Below are positions 22,844-38,005 of a DNA stretch of 64,000 nucleotides, piece after piece. Source of the DNA: Bacteroidota bacterium (GTDB lineage: Bacteria > Bacteroidota > Bacteroidia > 2-12-FULL-35-15). Within the stretch, counting starts at the first letter, position 1. Each line of letters opens with the position of its first letter. The notes beneath the pieces were generated by a model. That model was not told where the DNA came from. It saw only the letters and a list, made by a program, of their open reading frames with translations, and did no database searches. The position numbers and the translations under genes were made by a program. The DNA lies in NCBI GenBank assembly GCA_029237775.1, contig JAQZBR010000004.1, positions 744,001 through 808,000 on the forward strand. Direction: 5' to 3'.

Positions 22844-25800
22844 TTAATTGATGATCAATTTTCTGATGATCATTTCATTTCCATCGGTCAATCTAAGAGA
22901 ATAAAAACCCTTCTGTAAACCTTCAAGGTTGATTTGTTTATTATAGCTTCCAGTGATATTCTTTTCCCTGAAAGTAAATACTTCTTTACCCTGAATGTCA
23001 GTTACGTTTATCAAAAGGTCTGTAAACTGCACATTTACAAAGGAAATATTAAACATTCCGGCAGATGGATTTGGATATACTTCAACCGAGCTTGCGTTTT
23101 CTGTTTCTTCAATACCGGTACAATCATTTACATTTATGAGCTGCGTAAATGAATTGGAACAGGAGTTTGCATCAGTGAATGTGTATAGAACCGGATGAGA
23201 ACCCGGCCCTGCAACCCCCGGATCGAAAGTAATCCCGGAGACTTCAGTTCCACCGCTAAAAATCCCTCCAGCCGGAGAAGCATTCAAGATTATAGCACTT
23301 CCCTGCGCGCAAAGAGTTGCTATTGCAGGAAAACCTATTGCAGGAAGCGGATTAATCGTTACCATAATTGTATCTGATGATGTACATCCTGCGTTCGTAA
23401 CATCAACATGATACAATCCTGAATTGCTTACAGTAATGGCAGGAGTCACTGCTGATGTATTCCACAAAAAGGCAGCACCAAAATTTCCTGCATTCAATGT
23501 TACTGTTCCTGCACATTGCGAGATATCATTTCCGAGATTAACTACTGGATACTGATTGAATACAACATTCACTGTGTCTTTTGAAATACATCCCGTTAAA
23601 GGGTTAGTAACAGTGACGCTCACCGTTGAGGAAGAATAAACCGTAAGCGTTTGTGCATTCGTGTTATTATACCAGGAGTATAACGATCCGGGATTTCCTG
23701 CGTCAAAAGTGATAGAACCTCCGCACTGAGTTGTATCATTTCCAAGATCTAAAACCGGTAAAGGATTAATTGTTACAGTGATAGAATCTGTTGAAGTACA
23801 GGAGTTACTGTTTGCTACGGCAACATAATAGATTCCTGACGTAGTTGCAGTGAGTGTTTGATTTGTTGAAGAATTGTTCCAGGAATATGACGAACCTGAA
23901 TTACCGGCATCCAATATAACTGAGCCCGAACATTGTGTTGTGTCTGCGCCAAGGTTAACAACGGGAACCGCGTTAACCAGCACGTTAATTGAATCACTGG
24001 CTTTACATCCATTTACGTCTGTAACATCCACATAATAATTGCCGGCATTAGAAACATTAAGTGTCTGCGCTGTTGAAGAATCATTCCATAGGTATGCAGA
24101 GCCTGGAATGCCCGCATCGAGCAGGAAAACATCACCATTGCATATTGCAGTATCACCTCCAATGTTTACAATCGGCAACATGTTCTGAGAGATCATTATT
24201 GTATCAGACTTGTAACAGCCAGTTGCCGGATCACTCACATAAACAAAATAAGTAGATGGATTATTGACGTTAATAACCTGGTTGGTACTACCGGTACTCC
24301 ACGAATACATTGCACCCGGATTACCGGCATTCAAACTGATTGAATCACCAATACAGATCGCAGTATCGATTCCTAAATTCACTGTTGGCAAAGGATTAAC
24401 AGTGATCACAATTGAATCACTTTCAAAACATAGTGTTAATGGATTAGTTACAGTTACATAATAAGTTCCCGCTGAACCTGTTGTAATAGTTTGTGCTGTG
24501 CTTGAATCATTCCACAGAAAATTAAATCCTGTATTGGCAGCATCAATTAATATAGAATCACCTGAGCAAAATCCAATATCAGATCCGAGATCAACAACCG
24601 GAGGATTATTTATGATCAGATTCATGCTGTCTCTTACCATACATCCTTCGGCAGTAGTGATATCAACATAAAATAATCCGCCTGTAGTTGTGCTTATACT
24701 TTGACTTGTAGCAGCAGTATTCCACAGATACGTGGAGCCCGCGTTTTGTGCATTCAGAACGGCAGGTTGTCCTGAACAGACAGCGGTATCAGATAAGACT
24801 AATGCAGGTAATGCATTTACAAAAACATTTACTGCGACCCTGTTGCTTGAACAGCTTCCTGAATTAGCAGCTGCATAAAATGTATAGGTGCCCGGTGTAT
24901 TTGAATCAGGTAAGAATGCTGTACCTATAGCCTCCAGCGAACTCCCCGCGCCCTGAACAGTTCCGCCAGTTAAAGAATTCCACCAGTTCAACGTTGTAAC
25001 AGGTAATGAATACATCACAACAAGACGCACTGAATCAAATGTAGCATCATTGCCTCCATCGTTGAATGTTTCCGTCAAGGAAAGAGTAACTGATCCTCCT
25101 GAAGCCGGAAGATTCGGAATTGTAATTATAGGATTTGGAGTAATAACTCCAGCGGAAGCTTGCGTTGATAATTGGGTAGCCGCCAGTGTTGTAGCACCAC
25201 TTAAAGCGACTCTGATTTCGCTCCTGTACGAAGGACTGACTGCTGTTGCCCCAAAAACAAGAAGTTGTGTTCCTGTGATAGTGGCGCCTGCCGGAACAGC
25301 ACCTACTGAAACTGTGTAGGTGGATGCTCCTGTGCCGGTTGAGACCAGGGCATTACCGAAGCTGGCAGAGACAATACCTGAACCCGAAGGCGCGTTAGCA
25401 TTCATCATTGCAGAGGCGGAGCCCTCGCATATTAAAATGCTATCATTGCTGACAACCGGAGGAGCAGGAATATATGTATCAATAACAACTGAAACGTTGT
25501 TTGTATTCGACCAGCAACTGGTTGCCGAATCATAAGCCGAAATATAATAGGTCCCGGTAGAGTTTATGCTATATGGAGCAGTAGCGTTCATCAGATTGCT
25601 GGTCCCGGAACTGTTCGTTCCCTGCCAATAATAAGCGATTCCGGTTGCCGGAGCCGGAACAGAAATGGTGGTATTCAAACATGCTGGCGATGCAGCCGCA
25701 ACCGGAGTGGGAGGAGTTGCAGCCAGCGGAATATTATTTACTGTTATTGACGATGATCCAAGCGACCAAACATTATTGGTTGAGTTATAGGTCCGTACAT

Positions 25801-27409
25801 AGTAAGTCCCATTCAGATAGACCGTATATGGTCCCGAAACCGGATTAGCTGTTGACGTTCCGGTTGCGGAGGTTTGCCAGTACCAGACATCTCCGGATGC
25901 AGGTGAACCCGGAACTGAAAGATCGGTTCCCGCTATACAGGTAGGAGAAGCCGGGTCCTGAACCGGAGTTGGAGGATCAGGAGGCAGAGGAACAACGTTA
26001 ACAATATAATCTTCCGTTTCACCTGAAGCCATTGACGTACAGGCATCGTTTGCACCATTTGTATTTCCTGAACTTCTTGATCTCACTCTCATGCCCGTAA
26101 TACCCGTTAAAGCCGTAACGGGAATCGTTACTGTGATGGAACCTGTCGTACCTGTAGTAAAAGGCTGATACCATTCGGTGGGTTCAAAAACACCACTGTG
26201 GTTCCAGTCAAACCAAACCGAGGTGATTGCAGTTGCATTTGTTGTAAGAGATAAAGTATAACCGGAGCCGAGAAACAAATTTGTAGTTGCACTTTGCTGA
26301 CTATAATTTCCGGTGGAGCATCCAGCGGTTGTATTGTTCAGTGTGTTGATCGTAACATTCGTGACACATGCAGTTCCGGAGTTAGGTGCTGTGCAGTAAC
26401 AATTATAAAAAGCATTCATGTTTACCTGAAGCGGAGTTGATGTTGCTGTCAATCCAGAACTGGTGCAGGTTACAATAGCCTGATAATAGGTGGCTGATGA
26501 CTGATTAACAGTAAGTGTTGCAGATGTTGCAGCAGCTATATTATTAAATGTAATTCCATCAGAAGAGGATTGCCATTGATAGGACAAGCCGGTAGCCACA
26601 GATGCACCGTTTAAGCTCAGGGTAAAGTTCACTCCGTTACATGCAGAGCTTACTGAAGAAACAGTCGTTCCTGCAGTTGGTGCTCCCGAACAAAGAACAG
26701 GAGGTGTCCAGGTGAATGTTAGTCCGGAGGGAGGCAAAATCGTTGAAGACACTGCGATGTTTGCTGCATTGGTTGCCCCCGCAGTCGTTGCAGTCCAATT
26801 TGATGTTGACGTACGATTATTGAAATCTGCATTCGTAGCTCCACGTAAACCCACCTGAACGGTTGTGGTATTGGCATTATTAACGAATGAGCCGTAAACA
26901 ACATCAATAATATTGCTTGCCTCATTCAATCGGATCTGAAAATTATAGCTATCCCCTGTTCCGTTGGTTCCAAATTTTTTATAATTCAACCATTGAATAA
27001 CGCAGGTCCTGTTAGGAGCCGTTCCTATGGTCTGAATGCTTAGCTCGGCTCCTGTCTGTGCCTGAATATCACGATTAAAAGCTGAAATTACATTGTTAGT
27101 TCCCCCTGTGCTTAATGCGACATAGGAACTTGCGATGGTAGTTCCCATCGCAATAAAACCGTTTGAGTTCACACTCATCTGCGTATAGGTTGTTCCGTTG
27201 TAAACAAAGGAAAATCCTATTGCTTGTGCGGTGAAGCTACCGTCATCGTTAGTGGTGGTACCAAGTACAGTTCCACCGGTTAATGCAGTAAAGGTTCCGG
27301 AACTTTGCGAAAAACCATAGCTGGCAACAGTTTGCGAAGTGACTTCTAAAGCAAAACAAAATAAACTTAGCAGTAATGTCAATCGACTTTTGTAAGTATA
27401 GTAACTCAT
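22844..27409 (-). CDS. Large T9SS-exported surface protein with GEVED and tandem Ig-like domains
   Basis: The 1521-residue protein has a signal peptide, then an N-terminal domain of about 200 residues (SVNSNGFIAMGT, IDVVYGSF) like those in secreted Bacteroidota proteins. A GEVED domain follows around residues 380-470 (VWFDWNHSGVFEPTEWYQPF, ending GETEDYIVNV). Ig-like modules come next, then about eight tandem modules of about 70 residues with the pattern PVVNLGxDTxxCxGxxxLDAGNxGxxYxWN. The end is a T9SS sorting domain (VEVYPNPSAGMFNI, GFYSLRLTDGNEMI). It should be displayed on the cell surface. No catalytic residues are seen. The upstream gene, another cargo protein, is on the same strand but ends in its own terminator. 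Confidence 0.9.
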   Translation of the reverse strand: MSYYTYKSRLTLLLSLFCFALEVTSQTVASYGFSQSSGTFTALTGGTVLGTTTNDDGSFTAQAIGFSFVYNGTTYTQMSVNSNGFIAMGTTIASSYVALSTGGTNNVISAFNRDIQAQTGAELSIQTIGTAPNRTCVIQWLNYKKFGTNGTGDSYNFQIRLNEASNIIDVVYGSFVNNANTTTVQVGLRGATNADFNNRTSTSNWTATTAGATNAANIAVSSTILPPSGLTFTWTPPVLCSGAPTAGTTVSSVSSACNGVNFTLSLNGASVATGLSYQWQSSSDGITFNNIAAATSATLTVNQSSATYYQAIVTCTSSGLTATSTPLQVNMNAFYNCYCTAPNSGTACVTNVTINTLNNTTAGCSTGNYSQQSATTNLFLGSGYTLSLTTNATAITSVWFDWNHSGVFEPTEWYQPFTTGTTGSITVTIPVTALTGITGMRVRSRSSGNTNGANDACTSMASGETEDYIVNVVPLPPDPPTPVQDPASPTCIAGTDLSVPGSPASGDVWYWQTSATGTSTANPVSGPYTVYLNGTYYVRTYNSTNNVWSLGSSSITVNNIPLAATPPTPVAAASPACLNTTISVPAPATGIAYYWQGTNSSGTSNLMNATAPYSINSTGTYYISAYDSATSCWSNTNNVSVVIDTYIPAPPVVSNDSILICEGSASAMMNANAPSGSGIVSASFGNALVSTGTGASTYTVSVGAVPAGATITGTQLLVFGATAVSPSYRSEIRVALSGATTLAATQLSTQASAGVITPNPIITIPNLPASGGSVTLSLTETFNDGGNDATFDSVRLVVMYSLPVTTLNWWNSLTGGTVQGAGSSLEAIGTAFLPDSNTPGTYTFYAAANSGSCSSNRVAVNVFVNALPALVLSDTAVCSGQPAVLNAQNAGSTYLWNTAATSQSISTTTGGLFYVDITTAEGCMVRDSMNLIINNPPVVDLGSDIGFCSGDSILIDAANTGFNFLWNDSSTAQTITTGSAGTYYVTVTNPLTLCFESDSIVITVNPLPTVNLGIDTAICIGDSISLNAGNPGAMYSWSTGSTNQVINVNNPSTYFVYVSDPATGCYKSDTIMISQNMLPIVNIGGDTAICNGDVFLLDAGIPGSAYLWNDSSTAQTLNVSNAGNYYVDVTDVNGCKASDSINVLVNAVPVVNLGADTTQCSGSVILDAGNSGSSYSWNNSSTNQTLTATTSGIYYVAVANSNSCTSTDSITVTINPLPVLDLGNDTTQCGGSITFDAGNPGSLYSWYNNTNAQTLTVYSSSTVSVTVTNPLTGCISKDTVNVVFNQYPVVNLGNDISQCAGTVTLNAGNFGAAFLWNTSAVTPAITVSNSGLYHVDVTNAGCTSSDTIMVTINPLPAIGFPAIATLCAQGSAIILNASPAGGIFSGGTEVSGITFDPGVAGPGSHPVLYTFTDANSCSNSFTQLINVNDCTGIEETENASSVEVYPNPSAGMFNISFVNVQFTDLLINVTDIQGKEVFTFREKNITGSYNKQINLEGLQKGFYSLRLTDGNEMIIRKLIIN

Positions 27410-27518: not shown

Positions 27519-30500
27519 TTAGTGTATTACGAGTTTTTGAATCTTAATGTTACGGTCAGTATACATTTTAATATAATAAACTCCTTTTGCAAATCCTTCC
27601 AGGTCAACCTGCTTGTTATAAACAGAAGAATTATTCTTCTCTTCATGGCTGTAAACCTCTTTCCCCTGAATATCAACAATGCTTACAGAGAATTGATTGA
27701 ATCTTGCATTTGTAATATTGATGTTAAACATTCCTTCAGTTGGATTAGGATAAACATTAATGTTCATCTCAGCTGACGATGCTGAGGCAATTCCATTACA
27801 TACATCAACCATGATCGTTGCTGTATCAGAGTTAGTACATGAATTAGCATCGGTTACAGTGTAAGTTATCAGATATGCACCTGATAATCCTGTAGGATCA
27901 AAGATTCCTGCTGTAACTGCTGTACCTGAATAAACACCTCCCGCAGGAGAACCGCCTGAAAGTGCTATCGGTCCCGCATTATCACAAACCGGAACTACAA
28001 ATGGTGTCATTGTTACGGATGGCAAAGTATTGATCGTAACACTGATCGTATCCGAAGCAGAACATGAACCATTATTTACTGTAACGTAATATGTTCCCGA
28101 TGATGTAACTGTCAAAGTCTGAGCAGTAGACATATCGCTCCACATGTAAGTCGCCCCCGCATTTTGCGCATCAAGGGTTGCGGAACCGCACTCGATCATA
28201 TCGGCACCAAGAACAACCACAGGCAATGAATTTACTGTAATCATTATTGTAGCAGTATCTGAGCATCCGTTAGCATCTGTTCCGATGACTGTATATGTAT
28301 CAGAAGCTGTCGGAGTAAATGGAGTGTTGTCCGTTACCGTTGTTGTACCCGACCATGTATAAGTGGAAGCACCGCTACCGGTTAAAGTTACGCTTGTTCC
28401 TGCACATACAGTATTATCAATATCGTTAGAAGAAGCAGTCACTGTTGGTAAAGGATTCACAGTTACAGTTGCTGTAGCTGTGTTCATACAACCGTTAGCA
28501 TCAGTTCCCGTTACAGTATAAGTATCAGTTGCTGTTGGAGTAAACGCTACACCATCAGCAATAGTACCGCTCCATGTATAAGATGTTGCACCGTTACCTG
28601 TTAAGGTTACTGAACCACCCTGACACACTGCTGCTGCACTAGAGTTTGCTACAACTGTTGGTAAAGGATTAACAGTTACCGTTGTAGTCGCTGTGTTCAT
28701 ACAACCGTTAGCATCTGTTCCTGTTACAGTATAAGTATCAGTTGATGTTGGAGTAAATGCTACACCATCAGCCACAGTGCCGCTCCATGTATAAGAGGTT
28801 GCACCGCCACCCGTTAAGGTTACTGAACCACCCTGACAAACTGCTGCTGCGCTAGAGTTTGCTAAAACCGTTGGTAAAGGATTCACAGTTACAGTTGTAG
28901 TCGCTGTGTTCATACAACCGTTAGCATCTGTTCCTGTTACAGTATATGTATCTGTTCCTGTCGGAGTAAACGCTACACCATCAGCAACAGTACCGCTCCA
29001 TGTATAAGATGTTGCACCGCTACCTGTCAAGGTAACTGAACCACCCTGGCAAATTGTTGCTGCGCTAGCGTTTGCTACAACTGTTGGTAAAGGATTCACA
29101 GTTACAGTTGTAGTCGCTGTGTTCATACAACCATTAGCATCTGTTCCCGTCACTGTGTATGTATCTGTTCCTGTCGGAGTAAATGCTACACCATCAGCTA
29201 CAGTACCGCTCCATGTATAAGACGTTGCACCGCTACCTGTTAAGGTTACTGAGCCACCCTGACAAACTGCCGCTGCACTAGAGTTTGCTACAACTGTCGG
29301 TAAAGGATTAACATTTAAAGTTACAGTTTGAGTTGCTGAACAACCTGAAGCAGTAACACTAACCGTATATGTAGTTGTTCCGGTCGCATTTGTTGCCATT
29401 GGATTAGCAATAGATGCATCACTTAAGAATGTTGCAGGTGACCAGCTGTATGTAAAGCCTGGATTAGCTGTCCCACCTGTGATACTTACATTATAATCCT
29501 CAAATTCACCAAAGTTCGAACCTCCGATACATGATTGTGCCGCAGTAGGTGCTGAACTATATCTGGAAGCTACACGCATTCGGGTAATTCCGTTATATGC
29601 GGTTACCGGAATAGTGACAGAACCGGTTACAACTGTAGGACTTGTTGATGATGAAGTCGTGTTATAAACACTTTCTGTTACTTCGTATGTACCATTTTGA
29701 TTTAAATCGATCCAGATACGGAACTGCTGTGCATAAAGACTAGTTGTTCCTCCTGCCTCTAAACTTAGAGAAACAGGTGTGCCCGCAACTACATTTGCTG
29801 TCATACCGCTGTAATAAGTATAATCATTTGCAGCATCTCCACTATTCAAATTTGAAATATTCCCAAAAGTGAAGCTTTTAATAAAATCACCTGAAGCAGA
29901 AACAGCAGTCATTGCAGGTGCACAATATGTTCTTGGCATGAAACCGGCAACCTCCAGCTGTGATGAGCCGCCTGAGCATATAGTTGAAGGGGTGGCTGTT
30001 GCAGAAGTTACAGAAGGCAATGGTGTTACGTTTACCGTAACGGTTGCGTTAGTTGCACAGCCGTCATTAGGTCCGCTTGAGTTATCAATCGCTGACAAAG
30101 AATATGTTGTTGTTCCTGAAGGAGAAACAGTTTGTGAAGATCCCACTAAAGATCCCGGTGTCCACGTGTATGTATATCCGGTATTGGAACTAGTAACATC
30201 CAACACACTGCTTTCGCCAGCGCAGATCGTTGCCGGTGTTGCAGAAACTGTCACAGCAGGCGGTGTATTCACTGTTGCAACCACCAAAGAACGTGGACCA
30301 GAACATGCAACCTGACCTGTAAATGTAGCATTCAGACGCTGAGTGCTTAAAGATGCCGTTGGAGATGAAGTCCATAATGCTGGAGATGCGCTGCTTGTTG
30401 TTGCGTAAGCAGCTGTGTTACCGGTCGTAGCCGTATAATATGTAATTGAATTATTTGTTGCATCAGCACCGACCTGTTTGATATCAACGAGAATATTTGA

Positions 30501-33500
30501 TACCCCATCCCAGTTGTAAGGTGTGGAGAACGTCATGGTATTTAAACCTAATGAATGATTATACGTTGCTGCGCTGAAAACAGTTGTCAACCCCGTTGTA
30601 GTAAACCCTGTCAGAGTGTTTCCTGCCACTGCGCCTAAGGATATAGAGAAGTTTGTAACATTTGTTGCATCTCCAAAAGAAGTAATTCTGAATCCAAGGG
30701 ATGTGATGTTACCTGCCCCTAATCCCGCAGCGTGAAGTTCTGCAGCAGTGTAAACCATTTGACACCAGTATTGCTTCCATCTGTTACAGAAAGCGGTTGG
30801 CTGACTAGTTGCGGAAGTTAATGTTGTTGCAGTTCCAACAGTTGCATCACCCGGAGTTAATACTTCAGCTCCTACGTAATAATTTGTGGTACTACTGATT
30901 GATGGAGTTGTAAAGTTAGACCCCGTTGATAAAGGAGCACCGCCAGTAGAGGCCGCATACCAGTTTAGTGTGCTTCCTGCGCTAGCTGCTGCCGCTAAAG
31001 ATACTGTACCAACTCCGCAACGGGAACCAGGAGAAGTAGAGACTACAGAAGGATTATAAACATTAATCGCAACAGACGGTGATGTTACGCAAACAGAAGC
31101 ACCGTTTTTAATTTGAACCTGATAATACGTTGTACTTGTTAAAGCGGATGTAGCATATGTTGCTGTTGTTGCACCTCCAATGTCAGTAAATGAACTATTA
31201 TCTGAAGACACCTGCCATTGTAAAGAACCGGTACCCAGTCCTGTAGATGGACTCGCAGTTAAAACTGAGCTGCCTGACATACAGAAAGTAGTGGCGGAAG
31301 CTGTTGCAGAAACAGAAGCAGGTAAAACTGTAACCGTTGAATTTGCAACATTAGAACACTGTGTTGAAGAATTGTTCGCGTTGAGCGTATATGTCGCTGC
31401 TCCGGCTACAGAACTGTTAACATAAACAGTAGTAGCGGATGTTCCTGTATAAGGAATAGTTGCGCCTGCATCAGTGAATAAGTTCGTTGCCGGTGTCCAG
31501 ATGTAAGAATCAAAATCACTTGTCGGAGATGTCACAGTTAACATCGCAACTGAATTGTTGCAAACTGTTTGTGAAGCCGATACAGTTAACGCTGGAGCAG
31601 CCCCGACAGTTACGGTTACTGCAGTTCTTCCGCTTTCACACCCGTTAGTTCCTGTTTCAGAAACATAGAAGGTCGTTGTTGAGGAAACTGCTGTGTTATA
31701 TGTTGCTGAAGTACTTGACTGAAGAGCAGTACCTCCGCTTGAAGCAGCATACCAGTTAAACACTCCGCTTCCATTAACCATGTCGTTTGAAGTAACATTT
31801 GCCAGGGGAACCTGAGTTCCGCACTGTGAGCTACCCGCAGTCACAGGAGCCATTGGTAATGGATTAACAGTTACTGCAACTGTATTTGAAGTAACCGGGC
31901 AACCATTGGTTAATATTGTTGCGGTATAATTGCTTGAAGAAACCGGACTTACAGTCAAGCTACTTGTGGTTCCTACCACTGTGCTTCCGTCTGACCACGA
32001 ATATGAACTCGCAGCAGGTAGCGCAGCGAAGATGAATTTAGGCCTTGAAGTTCCAGTACCGTCAGGAGTTGTAGAAGCAAGCATCTGAGCAGGAGTTTGT
32101 GAATCTGCCTGATCATAAGCAGAACTTGTGAAACCCGTTGCATCTACTTTCATTGTTGTACTTGTTGAAGTAGTTGCACTTGGAACACTGCTCCAGGAGA
32201 AAGACAAGACGATGTTTGAGCTTCCATCCCAGTTAAAAACAGAACTGGATCCTGTACCTGTTCCGAAAGTAAAGGTATTCACGGTGTTTGCAACCGGAAG
32301 AAATCCATTGTTAGTGCCTGTAGCAAGATAAACCTGAGTTAATCCGGAAGATACAAATGAAGTACTCAATGCAGTTAATGCAGTTGGTGCGATACTTAAT
32401 GAAAATCCCGTATATGTTTGTCCTGAAGTGGTAGGCTCAAAACCAAGGGAAGATATAGGCCCTGCTGTTACACCCATTGCAGTAAGTTCAGATGCTCTTA
32501 TTAAATATTGGGTTTTGGCACCACCCCAACCTCCGGGAAGGAAAGAGGCAGCCGTTGATGAAGAAGTTGATGCGCCTGCACCTAACATTACAGGTGAGCG
32601 CGAAAGTGATACATTAAGATTAGCCGAACCTCCTGCACAAATTGTGGTAGGAGTCGCTGTAGCTAAAGCTGTAGTACCAGTGTTTGGCTCATCAGAATAG
32701 CTGGTGCCAACATAAGTAGAAGTTATCCCTAACGAGTTAGTTGCGGTTACTGACCATGAAACCATTGCATTTCCTATTGCAGGAGCTGTGATAGTTCCAA
32801 TCCAAGAGTTGCCAGTAGAGTTTGTCATCACAACAGGCGTTTGCGCAACACCATTGTAGCTGTAATTCAAAGTTGCACCGCTGATTGTTCCTGATACGGT
32901 AGTGATGTCCACTACAATGTCTCTGTTGGCCTTAACACACTGACTGGTTAATCCAGGTGTAATAGAAGTGAATGTAATAACCGGAGCAGGTGTTGTGCCA
33001 TTAAATTCATCCGCACCAATATCCGGAGCTGATCCGGTTCCCGCGTAACCCCCGTTACCAAAACGAATATCGTTATCATAGTCTGTGGTGATACCTGAAA
33101 CAGACGTCCCCCCGCTTTCTAAAACAGTTGCAGTTGATGGATCGATATGCAGATAAACAGCTGAAGCTCCCGATAAGCTTAAAAAAACAGGGTTTACCGA
33201 TACCGACATATTATCCCTTGCAGCTACACGCGTTTTATATGATGCCAAAGTCTGATCGCTGTTGGTTCCATCATAAAAAATTAAGTTTGTTGCAGAAGGA
33301 GTGCCAGCAAAGAAATCGTTATTATTTGAAGTGCCAGCGTAGGTTGTTAGAGTTGTTGAGCTTCTTCTGTATGCTACTGTTAATCCAGTACCATTAGCAG
33401 TAGAAGCATTTATAATGATATTATTACGCATGTCTACGGTCGGAGTTGTAGAAACTGAAACTGCCGAGCTTCCGAAATTGGTTCCTGTACTGGTAGCAAA

Positions 33501-35405
33501 TAATTGAATTGTATTATAATAAAGGTTTACTGTAGTTCCTCCTGTTACATTGATTCCAACTAAGGGATTTGTTCCGGATGCAACTGTTGCTTTTAAATCA
33601 CCGATTATATTGTTTGATACAGTTACAGTACCTGCTGAGATCAGCAATCCATTTACAGATCCGCCAGCATTAGTAGTTTCAAAATTATAGATCTTATTTT
33701 TTGAAAGCGAGCCTGATGTTCCTGTGGAAATTCCTGTAACAGCCGATGCGCCTGTTGACGAAAGGCTATTAACCATATTCAAGATTACATCTGCAGTTCC
33801 GTTGCTTCCTACATTTATTCCGGTTACAGCTCCGCCCGCATTTACATTTGTAATGGAGTTCCCTGTTAATGTATTGCTTCCGAAGCTCGCATTAATAATA
33901 GTAACTGAGTTGGTTCCGCCCGTTATATTATTAAAAATATTATTGTTGATGAATTTAGTGGGAGATCCTCCGTCAGTATTGCTCCACCCTGCGATTGTTG
34001 TAGCTCCGGTAACAGTAATATTAGAGAAATTGTTATTATTATTATTTACTGTTGAACCTGCTACTGAAGAAGCATTCGATGTAAAGAATGTCACCGTTCC
34101 TCCTGCACCGGATTTGTTAAAAGAAGTAACAATTGAATTGTTATTTACATTTTGAGTTCCACCGGCAGGTACGTTTACGCTATTAGTAATAAATGTAACA
34201 CTTCCTGTTGTGGTTAAATTAATATTTGTAAAAGTATTAAAGTTTATGTTTTGATTTAAGCTTACACCCCCGTTTGAAATAAAGGTAACAGAACCTGTGG
34301 CAGCTGCAACTGTATGCCCGAAACTGTTAAAATTATTGTTGTTAATATTTAAGGTTGTGGTAGCATTAACTGTGGATGATTGATTTTCAATTCCTACAAC
34401 GCTTCCTGCAACGACACCACTTTGAACTGAAATATTATTATTATTAATAGTATTAGTGACTGTACCTGTAGGAGAGTTTGTAAATGAAGGAATGAAAATC
34501 CCTCTTAATGTTCCGCTAGATGTTCCGCCTACGGAACTTGAAATCGTATTATAAGAAACATTAAAGTTCTTTGTATTGCGCACTAAAATACCATTCACAG
34601 TACCTGAAACATTTGCATAACCTGAGAAGGTCCCGGTTGTTCCATAATTGGTCAGCGTATTTCCTGTTGAAGATGATGTTCCTCCGATGTCTAATCCGTC
34701 ATTATGATCTGCAGACCCTGATGGCCCAACCACAACAATACCAATATTTACATTTGAAATATTATTGCCTGTAATCACGAGATTACTGTTCCCTCCTGCT
34801 GTAGTTGTAGCTGTTGCGCTTGTTGCAATAGTGGTTGCAGAGTGAGTTGAGTTGCTGTAAATACCAAATGTATTCTGATAAGTACGGTTTAAAGAAATCG
34901 TATTATTCAAAATAGAGATATTCTGCGCACCGTTTGTAGTTGACGCATAGAGTAAAGCTATTCCCCATTCTGTCATGGTATTGCTTGCAGCAGCAGTAAC
35001 ATTATTGGCAGAATTCTCCTGTAAAGTAAACCCTGATATAGTTACGTAATCCGCTCCGATGATTTTGATAATAGCATCATTTAAAGCACCGACCGTGTGT
35101 GCTGCAGATGCTGTAAGAGTGTTACCATTTCCCTGTATGATTATCGGGCTGGAGGAAGAACCTGTAAGAGTAGTGATTGCGTAACCTCCTGCGGGAGCAG
35201 TTTCAGGATTTCCTGAAATTACATTTAACGTTACCCCACCCGGACCTACTCCCTGAGTATTCAAATCAGTTATTGCAGCAGATAAAGTAGCATAGTCTCC
35301 AGGAATGTTTTTTAATCCTGTTAATTGGGCACTTGCTGAAAATGCGGTCATTAAACATGCAAATGCCACGGCAATACGCGTTTTTACCTTGTAATTTTTT
35401 TTCAT
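27519..35405 (-). CDS. Giant T9SS-exported protein with beta-helix, GEVED and near-identical Ig-like repeats
   Basis: The 2628-residue protein has a signal peptide ending ..FSASA. Residues about 40-790 form an Asn-rich right-handed parallel beta-helix (runs such as NINNNNFNSFGHTVAA), closing with the typical DIGADEFNG at about 795. Residues 800-1890 hold several Ig-like and fibronectin-like modules. A GEVED domain lies at about 1895-1975 (FRIWIDLNQNGTYEVTESVY, then GEFEDYNVSI). Residues 2033-2316 are four nearly identical 71-residue Ig-like repeats, followed by one diverged copy. The last 75 residues are a T9SS sorting domain (INVYPNPTEGMFNINI). Beta-helix plus Ig arrays suggest an adhesin or glycan-binding fibre. 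No catalytic motif is recognised. Confidence 0.9.
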   Translation of the reverse strand: MKKNYKVKTRIAVAFACLMTAFSASAQLTGLKNIPGDYATLSAAITDLNTQGVGPGGVTLNVISGNPETAPAGGYAITTLTGSSSSPIIIQGNGNTLTASAAHTVGALNDAIIKIIGADYVTISGFTLQENSANNVTAAASNTMTEWGIALLYASTTNGAQNISILNNTISLNRTYQNTFGIYSNSTHSATTIATSATATTTAGGNSNLVITGNNISNVNIGIVVVGPSGSADHNDGLDIGGTSSSTGNTLTNYGTTGTFSGYANVSGTVNGILVRNTKNFNVSYNTISSSVGGTSSGTLRGIFIPSFTNSPTGTVTNTINNNNISVQSGVVAGSVVGIENQSSTVNATTTLNINNNNFNSFGHTVAAATGSVTFISNGGVSLNQNINFNTFTNINLTTTGSVTFITNSVNVPAGGTQNVNNNSIVTSFNKSGAGGTVTFFTSNASSVAGSTVNNNNNNFSNITVTGATTIAGWSNTDGGSPTKFINNNIFNNITGGTNSVTIINASFGSNTLTGNSITNVNAGGAVTGINVGSNGTADVILNMVNSLSSTGASAVTGISTGTSGSLSKNKIYNFETTNAGGSVNGLLISAGTVTVSNNIIGDLKATVASGTNPLVGINVTGGTTVNLYYNTIQLFATSTGTNFGSSAVSVSTTPTVDMRNNIIINASTANGTGLTVAYRRSSTTLTTYAGTSNNNDFFAGTPSATNLIFYDGTNSDQTLASYKTRVAARDNMSVSVNPVFLSLSGASAVYLHIDPSTATVLESGGTSVSGITTDYDNDIRFGNGGYAGTGSAPDIGADEFNGTTPAPVITFTSITPGLTSQCVKANRDIVVDITTVSGTISGATLNYSYNGVAQTPVVMTNSTGNSWIGTITAPAIGNAMVSWSVTATNSLGITSTYVGTSYSDEPNTGTTALATATPTTICAGGSANLNVSLSRSPVMLGAGASTSSSTAASFLPGGWGGAKTQYLIRASELTAMGVTAGPISSLGFEPTTSGQTYTGFSLSIAPTALTALSTSFVSSGLTQVYLATGTNNGFLPVANTVNTFTFGTGTGSSSVFNWDGSSNIVLSFSWSSVPSATTSTSTTMKVDATGFTSSAYDQADSQTPAQMLASTTPDGTGTSRPKFIFAALPAASSYSWSDGSTVVGTTSSLTVSPVSSSNYTATILTNGCPVTSNTVAVTVNPLPMAPVTAGSSQCGTQVPLANVTSNDMVNGSGVFNWYAASSGGTALQSSTSATYNTAVSSTTTFYVSETGTNGCESGRTAVTVTVGAAPALTVSASQTVCNNSVAMLTVTSPTSDFDSYIWTPATNLFTDAGATIPYTGTSATTVYVNSSVAGAATYTLNANNSSTQCSNVANSTVTVLPASVSATASATTFCMSGSSVLTASPSTGLGTGSLQWQVSSDNSSFTDIGGATTATYATSALTSTTYYQVQIKNGASVCVTSPSVAINVYNPSVVSTSPGSRCGVGTVSLAAAASAGSTLNWYAASTGGAPLSTGSNFTTPSISSTTNYYVGAEVLTPGDATVGTATTLTSATSQPTAFCNRWKQYWCQMVYTAAELHAAGLGAGNITSLGFRITSFGDATNVTNFSISLGAVAGNTLTGFTTTGLTTVFSAATYNHSLGLNTMTFSTPYNWDGVSNILVDIKQVGADATNNSITYYTATTGNTAAYATTSSASPALWTSSPTASLSTQRLNATFTGQVACSGPRSLVVATVNTPPAVTVSATPATICAGESSVLDVTSSNTGYTYTWTPGSLVGSSQTVSPSGTTTYSLSAIDNSSGPNDGCATNATVTVNVTPLPSVTSATATPSTICSGGSSQLEVAGFMPRTYCAPAMTAVSASGDFIKSFTFGNISNLNSGDAANDYTYYSGMTANVVAGTPVSLSLEAGGTTSLYAQQFRIWIDLNQNGTYEVTESVYNTTSSSTSPTVVTGSVTIPVTAYNGITRMRVASRYSSAPTAAQSCIGGSNFGEFEDYNVSITGGTANPGFTYSWSPATFLSDASIANPMATNATGTTTYTVSVTASGCSATQTVTLNVNPLPTVVANSSAAAVCQGGSVTLTGSGATSYTWSGTVADGVAFTPTGTDTYTVTGTDANGCMNTATTTVTVNPLPTVVANASAATICQGGSVTLTGSGATSYTWSGTVADGVAFTPTGTDTYTVTGTDANGCMNTATTTVTVNPLPTVLANSSAAAVCQGGSVTLTGGGATSYTWSGTVADGVAFTPTSTDTYTVTGTDANGCMNTATTTVTVNPLPTVVANSSAAAVCQGGSVTLTGNGATSYTWSGTIADGVAFTPTATDTYTVTGTDANGCMNTATATVTVNPLPTVTASSNDIDNTVCAGTSVTLTGSGASTYTWSGTTTVTDNTPFTPTASDTYTVIGTDANGCSDTATIMITVNSLPVVVLGADMIECGSATLDAQNAGATYMWSDMSTAQTLTVTSSGTYYVTVNNGSCSASDTISVTINTLPSVTMTPFVVPVCDNAGPIALSGGSPAGGVYSGTAVTAGIFDPTGLSGAYLITYTVTDANSCTNSDTATIMVDVCNGIASASSAEMNINVYPNPTEGMFNINITNARFNQFSVSIVDIQGKEVYSHEEKNNSSVYNKQVDLEGFAKGVYYIKMYTDRNIKIQKLVIH
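28233..29309 (-). repeat. Tandem 213-bp coding repeat, four near-identical copies plus one diverged
   Basis: Four units of exactly 213 bp (71 codons) fill 28458-29309, each opening with the codons for NPLPTV and containing CQGGSVTLTG and TYTVTGTDANGCMNTAT. They differ by only a few residues. A fifth, 225-bp diverged copy occupies 28233-28457. The near identity marks recent duplication and a site where copy number can change by recombination. Confidence 0.92.
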
Positions 35406-35581: not shown

Positions 35582-37399
35582 TTACCGGGTTTGTGCAATG
35601 CGAATCGCTGCAGTTCTTAATTGAGTTTTTAACTGGAGTGTATAAATTCCATTTTTCAAATTAATTCCATCTACATTAAAATTGAACTCGTAATGGCCTT
35701 GTTCCTGAATTCCTTTATCAATAGTATATAATTTTTGCCCTATTGAATTGAACACTTCAAAGCTCACCGAAGTCTTTTCAGGAAGAAAATAACTTACTGT
35801 TGTGTTCTCCTGTAGTGGATTCGGATATACTGAATAACCCAATGATCTTGCAGCGTTCTCATGTATATTTACACCGTTGATATTTATCAGTTGTGTTGTG
35901 GTGTCGCTTCCGCAGGGACTGTTGACAATTAAGGTTACGTTAAAAACTCCGTTCGACATATAATTATGCACCGGATTCTGATTAACAGAAGTTCCCCCAT
36001 CTCCGAAATACCACTGATATGTATATGTTGTACTTGCGGTGTTATAGAACTGCACTGAAGAATTTCCCGTATGACTAAATGATGCAACTGGGCCTGCGGT
36101 CTGTTGGGTTAAAGTTATTGGTGCAGCTGCCCAATTATTCGTTTCATTTGATTCGAGAAAATTATTGTCGGGATCCGTAATAGAAACAATATAATAATCA
36201 CCATTACAAACTCCTGTAAGATCTATCGACATTCCTGCAAGCCCTTCACTGTAAATATCAAGATTTCCCACATAAATTCCCTGATCATTGCCGCAGCCGC
36301 TTACCAGTCCGAATGGTGAATTAGGAACATTTGCCATTGTTACAATAGGCCCGTAATTTCCATCGCGACAGTAACCGTAATCACTTGTGCAATCTCCAAG
36401 ATTTATCAGACAAAAAGACACTTTCGAACCTGCTGCCACAATAGGCCATGTAGTTGCATCAGGATTTGAGGTCGCTTTTCTTAAAGTAAATTCTGCCCAA
36501 TTATCAACGTGTATATGTCCGTGCGAAGGATGATAGCTCATTTCTCCATTTGTCAGGATATCATAAGTACTGATCGCTGCACCTGTTTTATGATAGATCG
36601 TTTGTTTTAATTTTTGTTTCGGATAGCTTCCATCCGGACAAATAGATGTTGAACAAGGCACTGTAATCGTATCACACCAGCATGAATTAGAACCGTGGAT
36701 CTCCATTGGCCCCCAGCCGATATTTGGAGTGGCATTGCTTAGGGTTATCAAACCGGGATACTCCGTGTGCTGATTCTGAATTATGAGAGCAGAGGCTGTC
36801 ATATCCGGAAGAAGGTCGCAGTTTGTTGTTCCATTCGGACAAAGACAAGCGGCCCCGTTGCTTGAGCTACAAGGTCCGCTCACAGGTCCACCTCCACCGG
36901 CTGGAGGGTTTGCCCCGAAAGTGATCGAGCATGAAAGTAAATTTCCAAAATCAGCTGGCACTTCGTCAACCACACATACGTACCATGTTCCGTTAGGATT
37001 CTGATTATTATTAACTCCGTTTATATTTCCATTTGGAACGAATGTCCCTGTATATGGAGCCGCCCCACCGCCTATTGGTCCTGAAGAACCATTCATAGCG
37101 AAGCATGTGTTTGTATAGTTGTCTCCGCTTCCGCCATTATTGCTTGATAATACGATAACGGTTCCGTCAGGTGATTTAAGTCTCAGGTCAAGATCCCCAA
37201 CCCAGGTATGTGTCAGGTTAATGCAAACCTGCGTAACTCCAAAAAGCGTGTCAATTTGAGATGGGAGTCCGCTTACGGTTACAGGAAAACACACTTCAGT
37301 GTTATTATCCGGAACAGCTCCTCCGGTATTATTTGTAAAGGTTTGAGATTTAGAAAGTAATGCTGTACCAAGCAAAAGAGCGAGTAGAAATTGTTTCAT
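35582..37399 (-). CDS. T9SS-exported lysyl oxidase homologue with P-domain and PKD domain
   Basis: The 605-residue protein has a signal peptide (1-19). A proprotein convertase P-domain follows at about 25-162 (LTHTWVGDLDLRLKSPDGT). A lysyl oxidase domain lies at about 196-425, a PKD domain at about 437-508 (YQWYFGDGGTSVNQNPVHNY) and a T9SS sorting domain at the end (YSVYPNPLQENTTVSYF). The copper motif is H290-x-x-H293-x-H295-x-H297, the spacing of human LOX. K326 (GSKVSFCL) and Y383 (LDIYSEGLAG) align with the two residues that form the lysine tyrosylquinone cofactor in LOX, and the ESNETNN segment also matches. It is therefore predicted to be an active copper amine oxidase acting outside the cell on lysine side chains or amines. 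The substrate is unknown. Confidence 0.88.
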   Translation of the reverse strand: MKQFLLALLLGTALLSKSQTFTNNTGGAVPDNNTEVCFPVTVSGLPSQIDTLFGVTQVCINLTHTWVGDLDLRLKSPDGTVIVLSSNNGGSGDNYTNTCFAMNGSSGPIGGGAAPYTGTFVPNGNINGVNNNQNPNGTWYVCVVDEVPADFGNLLSCSITFGANPPAGGGGPVSGPCSSSNGAACLCPNGTTNCDLLPDMTASALIIQNQHTEYPGLITLSNATPNIGWGPMEIHGSNSCWCDTITVPCSTSICPDGSYPKQKLKQTIYHKTGAAISTYDILTNGEMSYHPSHGHIHVDNWAEFTLRKATSNPDATTWPIVAAGSKVSFCLINLGDCTSDYGYCRDGNYGPIVTMANVPNSPFGLVSGCGNDQGIYVGNLDIYSEGLAGMSIDLTGVCNGDYYIVSITDPDNNFLESNETNNWAAAPITLTQQTAGPVASFSHTGNSSVQFYNTASTTYTYQWYFGDGGTSVNQNPVHNYMSNGVFNVTLIVNSPCGSDTTTQLININGVNIHENAARSLGYSVYPNPLQENTTVSYFLPEKTSVSFEVFNSIGQKLYTIDKGIQEQGHYEFNFNVDGINLKNGIYTLQLKTQLRTAAIRIAQTR

Positions 37400-37700: not shown

Positions 37701-38005
37701 AGAGATCCCGAAACGAGTTCGGGATAAATTCGACTGACCAATTTTGCGAAAAGCAAAAGTGGAGTTATGTTAGTTCATTAAAGAGATCCCGCATCAAGTG
37801 CGGGATAAATTCGCCTAACCGCTTTTGCAAAGGCAAAAGCGAAGTTATCTTAGTTCATTAAAGAGATCCCGCATCAAGTGCGGGATAAATTCGACTAACC
37901 GCTTTTGCGAAGGCAAAAGCGGAGTTATATTAGTTCATTAAAGAGATCCCGCATCAAGTGCGGGATAAATTCGACTAACCGCTTTTGCGAAGGCAAAAGC
38001 GGAGT
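37701..38005. repeat. Four-copy 80-bp tandem array of paired hairpins
   Basis: Units begin at 37701, 37782, 37862 and 37942 (period 80-81 bp; the last is cut short at about 38005). Each unit holds hairpin A (ATCCCGCA, 5-nt loop, TGCGGGAT) and hairpin B (CCGCTTTTGC, GAAG loop, GCAAAAGCGG), joined by AAATTCGACTAA and followed by TTAGTTCATTAA. Unit 1 has ATCCCGAA with TTCGGGAT, so both sides of hairpin A changed together. The array ends 5 bp before the stop codon of the PurF-like gene (38011), so its minus-strand transcript would run straight into the array. Confidence 0.9.

Follow-up and report, generated by a model that had tools for sequence, protein, structure and literature searches.

The open reading frame at 35582–37399 of the 64,000-nucleotide stretch of Bacteroidota DNA analysed here (hereafter the window) raises the question of whether a bacterium exports a working lysyl oxidase (LOX), a relative of the copper enzymes by which animals cross-link collagen, and, if so, what such an enzyme would act upon. 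Judging from its sequence and predicted structure, we consider it probable that the gene encodes a copper amine oxidase that belongs to the lysyl oxidase family and is secreted; catalytic competence appears likely, given its residues, its fold, the constraint upon it and, by analogy, the activity of the archaeal enzyme HTU-LOX. An earlier interpretation made from the letters alone (the sequence-only reading) had proposed an exported lysyl oxidase at this locus, and its strand, length and residue numbering were all exact on re-reading. The features of the gene are as follows.

35582..37399, (-): whole gene, 605 aa, an open reading frame.
37343..37399, (-): likely Sec signal peptide, residues 1–19, MKQFLLALLLGTALLSKSQ; typical by eye, with a helix at 2–15 in the model.
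36902..37342, (-): P-domain, residues 20–166; Pfam PF01483 at 57–161 and a folded region in the model.
36098..36880, (-): predicted lysyl oxidase catalytic domain, residues 174–434; partial Pfam PF01186, family alignment, and model versus 5ze3 at Z 14.5.
36509..36532, (-): copper motif HPSHGHIH (H290, H293, H295, H297); sequence and alignment to LOX/LOXL2.
36422..36424, (-): K326, position of the cofactor-precursor Lys (LOX K320, LOXL2 K653); alignment.
36251..36253, (-): Y383, position of the cofactor-precursor Tyr (LOX Y355, LOXL2 Y689); alignment.
35879..36079, (-): PKD domain, residues 441–507; Pfam and model.
35585..35845, (-): T9SS type-A C-terminal sorting domain, residues 519–605; PF18962 and TIGR04183 above cut-offs, and a compact beta domain in the model.

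The proposed combination of P-domain, PKD domain and T9SS signal is borne out, each scoring above its Pfam cut-off: P_proprotein at residues 57–161 (39.6 bits, cut-off 21), PKD_4 at 452–506 (48.7 bits, cut-off 27) and Por_Secre_tail PF18962 at 524–594 (31.2 bits, cut-off 27), the last in agreement with the NCBIfam T9SS tail model TIGR04183 (30.5 bits, cut-off 23). The Pfam Lysyl_oxidase match (PF01186, 31.3 bits, cut-off 20.4) spans residues 371–434 only, including Y383 and excluding the copper site and K326, so that assignment of the latter two depends on alignment; taken alone the match is weak, because part of this stretch is CARDB-like.

We therefore relied on alignment to place the active site. 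The intact HxxHxHxH motif (H290–H297), K326, Y383 and the SFCL and ESN-TNN words of the sequence-only reading are all present, with HPSHGHIH starting at 290, K326 lying in GSKVSFCL, Y383 in LDIYSEG and ESNETNN at 416. A family profile of 20 relatives, searched against the PDB with HMMER, returned human LOXL2 (5ze3, E 3e-6) as its best chain, placing K326 on the Lys of GHKASFCL and Y383 on the Tyr of WDMY. We also aligned 90 family domains jointly with human LOX and LOXL2 using MAFFT (the human LOXL2 stretch agrees with the 5ze3 sequence printed by HMMER); H290, H293, H295, H297, K326 and Y383 fall in register with both human proteins in three MAFFT modes. The weak point foreseen in the sequence-only reading was that K326 or Y383 might fall away from the LOX cofactor residues, and both align, by profile and by MAFFT. 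Their counterparts, the precursors of the lysine-tyrosylquinone (LTQ) cofactor, are numbered K653/Y689 in LOXL2 and K320/Y355 in LOX (PMC10532419; PMC4448552).

The predicted structure of the LOX domain (AlphaFold, mean pLDDT 95.9, pTM 0.91) points to the same relative. At E <= 0.001 Foldseek returns no PDB entry other than the LOXL2 structure 5ze3, and comparison using VIA superimposes the model on it with Z 14.5 and an rmsd of 2.4 Å over 160 residues (26% identity), the next-ranked match being a CARDB domain at Z 7.5. The global Foldseek TM-score to 5ze3 is low (0.43), which fits partial cover, and 5ze3 is a precursor-state structure, such that the formed cofactor is not displayed in it. The full-length model comprises the signal helix, P-domain, LOX and PKD domains, a disordered linker (510–518) and the C-terminal domain, their relative placement being uncertain (pTM 0.60). 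Searches for LOX across the phylum and genus also match short CARDB-like C-terminal stretches of long repeat proteins, and with the Pfam match lying mainly at the CARDB-like end we considered mis-annotation of a CARDB domain; for this gene it is ruled out by the copper His residues, the Lys and the whole-domain structural match.

The bacterial protein thus shares with human LOX/LOXL2 (5ze3) the four-His copper motif including its first His, the LTQ Lys and Tyr, the SFCL/NN motifs and the fold. It differs in having a Cys-rich N-terminal part and a Cys-containing insert, the latter widening the K326–Y383 spacing to 57 residues versus 35–36 in LOX/LOXL2, and its LOX domain is without the animal C-terminal part past the TNN motif; the wider spacing and the missing segment both count against the preferred reading. 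The partner domains also differ: SRCR or propeptide in animal LOX/LOXL2, P, PKD and T9SS tail in the bacterial protein.

Relatives collected at genus and class level and from the GTDB species set indicate that these residues are under constraint. Of the 90 distinct homologous domains compared, 89 keep all three core His residues and every one keeps the Lys and Tyr, a conservation that rules out a chance motif. Same-genus carriers have LOX domains 76–89% identical to that of 35582–37399, and in the closest orthologues amino-acid change is ~1.5 to 3 times less in the LOX domain than in its flanks; synonymous sites are near saturation in these orthologues, mostly precluding a proper dN/dS. The first copper-site His is present in 70/90 domains, most of its losses being changes to Asp or Asn in one expansion within a metagenome-assembled genome (MAG). 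This residue has been stated to be missing from bacterial, or sampled non-animal, LOX (PMC4448552; PMC6508830), to which the Bacteroidota clade, as read from sequence, is an exception; its presence in bacterial LOX is new here, contrary to that reported absence.

The expansion belongs to MAG palsa_967 (PLYJ01; G484), which carries ~18 LOX genes, 17 complete and one in two pieces (L076, L080, L082, L083, L085, L087, L089–L091, L093, L094, L096, L097, L100, L101, L105, L106); these paralogues group together in one clade of the tree, and each retains the Lys and Tyr with the first copper His replaced by Asp/Asn. A separate homologue (L028 and L049:9539-11617; G061), with L028 at ~40% identity, retains the cofactor Lys and Tyr but none of the four copper His residues (YRGGGSLYNDEW); from its sequence, L028 is possibly a non-catalytic member, which is a point against the preferred reading.

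The gene is patchily distributed, with a full LOX domain in 10/36 genus genomes, LOX in only a few of 395 genomes in a phylum sample, and a single copy in the source genome. A search of viral contigs returned no LOX relatives, and plasmid-borne relatives were limited to distant Streptomyces LOX.

We next consider whether the layout is peculiar to this gene. Scanning 54 homologues, nearly all of which have an extended N-terminal part, located the P-domain in 52, PKD (PF00801) in 42 and a T9SS tail in 43; by sequence, the signal peptide–P–LOX–PKD–T9SS layout is common to a Bacteroidota family. A second group (n = 16) has the LOX domain at the start followed mostly by Ig_7 and T9SS tails, and the two architecture types are largely apart in the tree. 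Members of this P-domain-less Bacteroidota sister clade (e.g. L015–L020) share a LOX domain ~42–46% identical and, in 13/16, the T9SS tail, but place LOX directly after the signal peptide, have Ig_7 in place of P and PKD, and are mostly separate in the tree.

The P-domain has its nearest counterparts outside the LOX family in T9SS-tailed proteins that have a CotH kinase domain, at ~47–55% identity between LOX and CotH kinase proteins in relatives. Such proteins, pairing CotH kinase and T9SS tail with a P-domain like that of the LOX protein, are found at L153:294-2378 (own genome, C6) and L022–L031, the CotH assignment being by Pfam for L022 and the own-genome L153 and by CotH-region similarity to L022 for the others. 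Being common to LOX and CotH kinases, the P-domain is a shared module, uninformative on any protease.

Outside these clades, other prokaryotic lysyl oxidases serve for comparison. HTU-LOX from Haloterrigena turkmenica has, according to its authors, the copper His residues and the LTQ Lys and Tyr (PMC6452851); it differs in being archaeal, in that reports of it mention neither P and PKD domains nor T9SS parts, and in that its activity was measured, whereas the present case is built on sequence and model. HTU-LOX, the only characterised prokaryotic member that we found, has an enzymatic activity that 3-aminopropionitrile inhibits, and the same authors term the native function of prokaryotic LOX cryptic (PMC6452851). 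Bacterial LOX of a 2015 survey, Bacteroidetes included, belong to the same Pfam family and have the Lys, the Tyr and the three core His residues, but are stated there to lack the first His, here present as H290 and in the 70 domains counted above; all but three of the prokaryotic LOX surveyed are described as simple in architecture (PMC4448552). Streptomyces WP_127436696.1 ("lysyl oxidase family protein") matches PF01186 and contains GHMHWH, GKEAFCL and GDTY motifs, but is ~27% identical, has Asp at the first His and is without P, PKD and T9SS parts. LOX in Bacteroidota is known at family level, while this architecture and the first His are undescribed in the open-licence papers searched; we, like the sequence-only reading, found no characterised LOX of such architecture in that literature, nor did the open-licence papers yield any experiment on a Bacteroidota LOX member.

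The genome setting is compatible with export. T9SS apparatus genes are present (SprA at 2626 bits, GldL at 260 bits) together with at least 150 T9SS tail matches, consistent with the sorting signal named in the sequence-only reading. Upstream, purF precedes the LOX gene in most genus members examined, an adjacency that reads as shared synteny and not as function. Between purF and the LOX gene lies a tandem array (37701–38005 of the window; 3.8 copies of an 80-base unit with a palindrome, GATCCCGCATCAAGTGCGGGAT). Directly downstream on the same strand, 22844–27409 and 27519–35405 encode two giant T9SS proteins bearing Ig_7 and GEVED domains, the larger having near-identical repeated Ig-like units close to its C-terminus. 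Large ORFs sit directly downstream in several relatives, and downstream neighbours are not kept in all. An operon or partner gene was accordingly rejected, purF being synteny and giant T9SS ORFs lying downstream in some relatives only.

From these observations we infer the metal, cofactor, activity, place and substrate of the product. Sec would carry the protein across the inner membrane, and the LOX domain would fold and bind Cu via H293, H295 and H297, perhaps also H290; an oxygen-dependent reaction between K326 and Y383 would yield the lysine-tyrosylquinone. The T9SS would then move the protein over the outer membrane and remove the C-terminal tail, after which the protein would stay anchored at the cell surface or be set free from it, and the P and PKD domains may position the enzyme there. 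Primary amines (either small amines or Lys side chains on proteins of the cell surface or of foreign origin) would be converted to aldehydes with release of H2O2 and ammonia, and cross-links are a possible follow-on of aldehyde formation.

Which amines these would be divides the readings of an active enzyme. HTU-LOX has a relaxed specificity, oxidising taurine, cadaverine, histamine and others, and its authors propose nitrogen use from unusual amines (PMC6452851), a breadth that sets amine use or H2O2 production level with protein cross-linking. That the Bacteroidota enzyme acts mainly on small amines, for nitrogen scavenging or local H2O2 rather than protein cross-linking, is accordingly a realistic reading, if short of probable: no lysine-rich partner was found (Lys content is 1.1% and 0.7% in the two giant neighbours and almost nil in collagen-like tracts), while the P and PKD domains with surface display argue, weakly, for a role in which the enzyme must be placed on a surface or protein. 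These same features, the T9SS tail and adhesion-type domains, are what favour a role in surface-matrix maturation, in which the enzyme would cross-link matrix proteins or proteins exported by the T9SS in the manner of animal matrix cross-linking, a reading we hold tentatively. It draws further on the giant T9SS proteins directly downstream on the same strand, with large ORFs likewise placed in several relatives, and on a P-domain that also occurs in T9SS-tailed CotH kinases, which likewise modify proteins. Those neighbours are, however, poor in lysine and missing from some relatives, and the patchiness of the gene (10/36 genus genomes) also counts against a matrix role.

Collagen was an appealing candidate substrate, but finds no support here. 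The source genome has 57 collagen-like gene matches, and such genes occur in 30/36 genus members; those at L156–L161 (own genome, C7, C8, C4, C5, C11) contain long GATG-type Gly-X-Y tracts that are nearly Lys-free and mostly Pro-free. In the collagen-like proteins of this genome, the Gly-X-Y tracts hold ~1 Lys in about 2,300 residues, which also weighs against the matrix reading. LOX carriers have more collagen-like matches (p 0.066 for all genomes, 0.008 for those >=90% complete, kinship uncorrected), but genome size also differs between carriers and others (p 0.07), and both genome size and kinship confound the association. A third reading, in which the LOX fold binds a partner or plays a structural part but has no oxidase activity, can appeal to L028, which is without the copper His yet keeps the fold residues, and to the proximity of the fold to CARDB domains, second in the structural ranking; the joint, near-perfect conservation of His, Lys and Tyr in 90 domains makes it very unlikely.

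An exported lysyl oxidase therefore remains our preferred interpretation of 35582–37399. At its most extended, the proposal would be that in some Bacteroidota a T9SS-exported LOX matures a proteinaceous surface matrix by lysine-derived cross-links, that the P-domain held in common with exported CotH kinases brings protein-modifying enzymes to the same place, and that this constitutes a bacterial counterpart of animal matrix cross-linking with the four-His copper site that earlier work reports for animals and ichthyosporeans; we regard this full scheme as speculative and rather improbable. A secreted lysine oxidase would be a useful protein-cross-linking tool. The family appears to be conserved and exported, its architecture is defined, its active site is intact and its neighbours in sequence space are clear, making activity, secretion and substrate directly testable, and the occurrence of the first copper-site His within a clade of bacteria bears on the origin of animal LOX.
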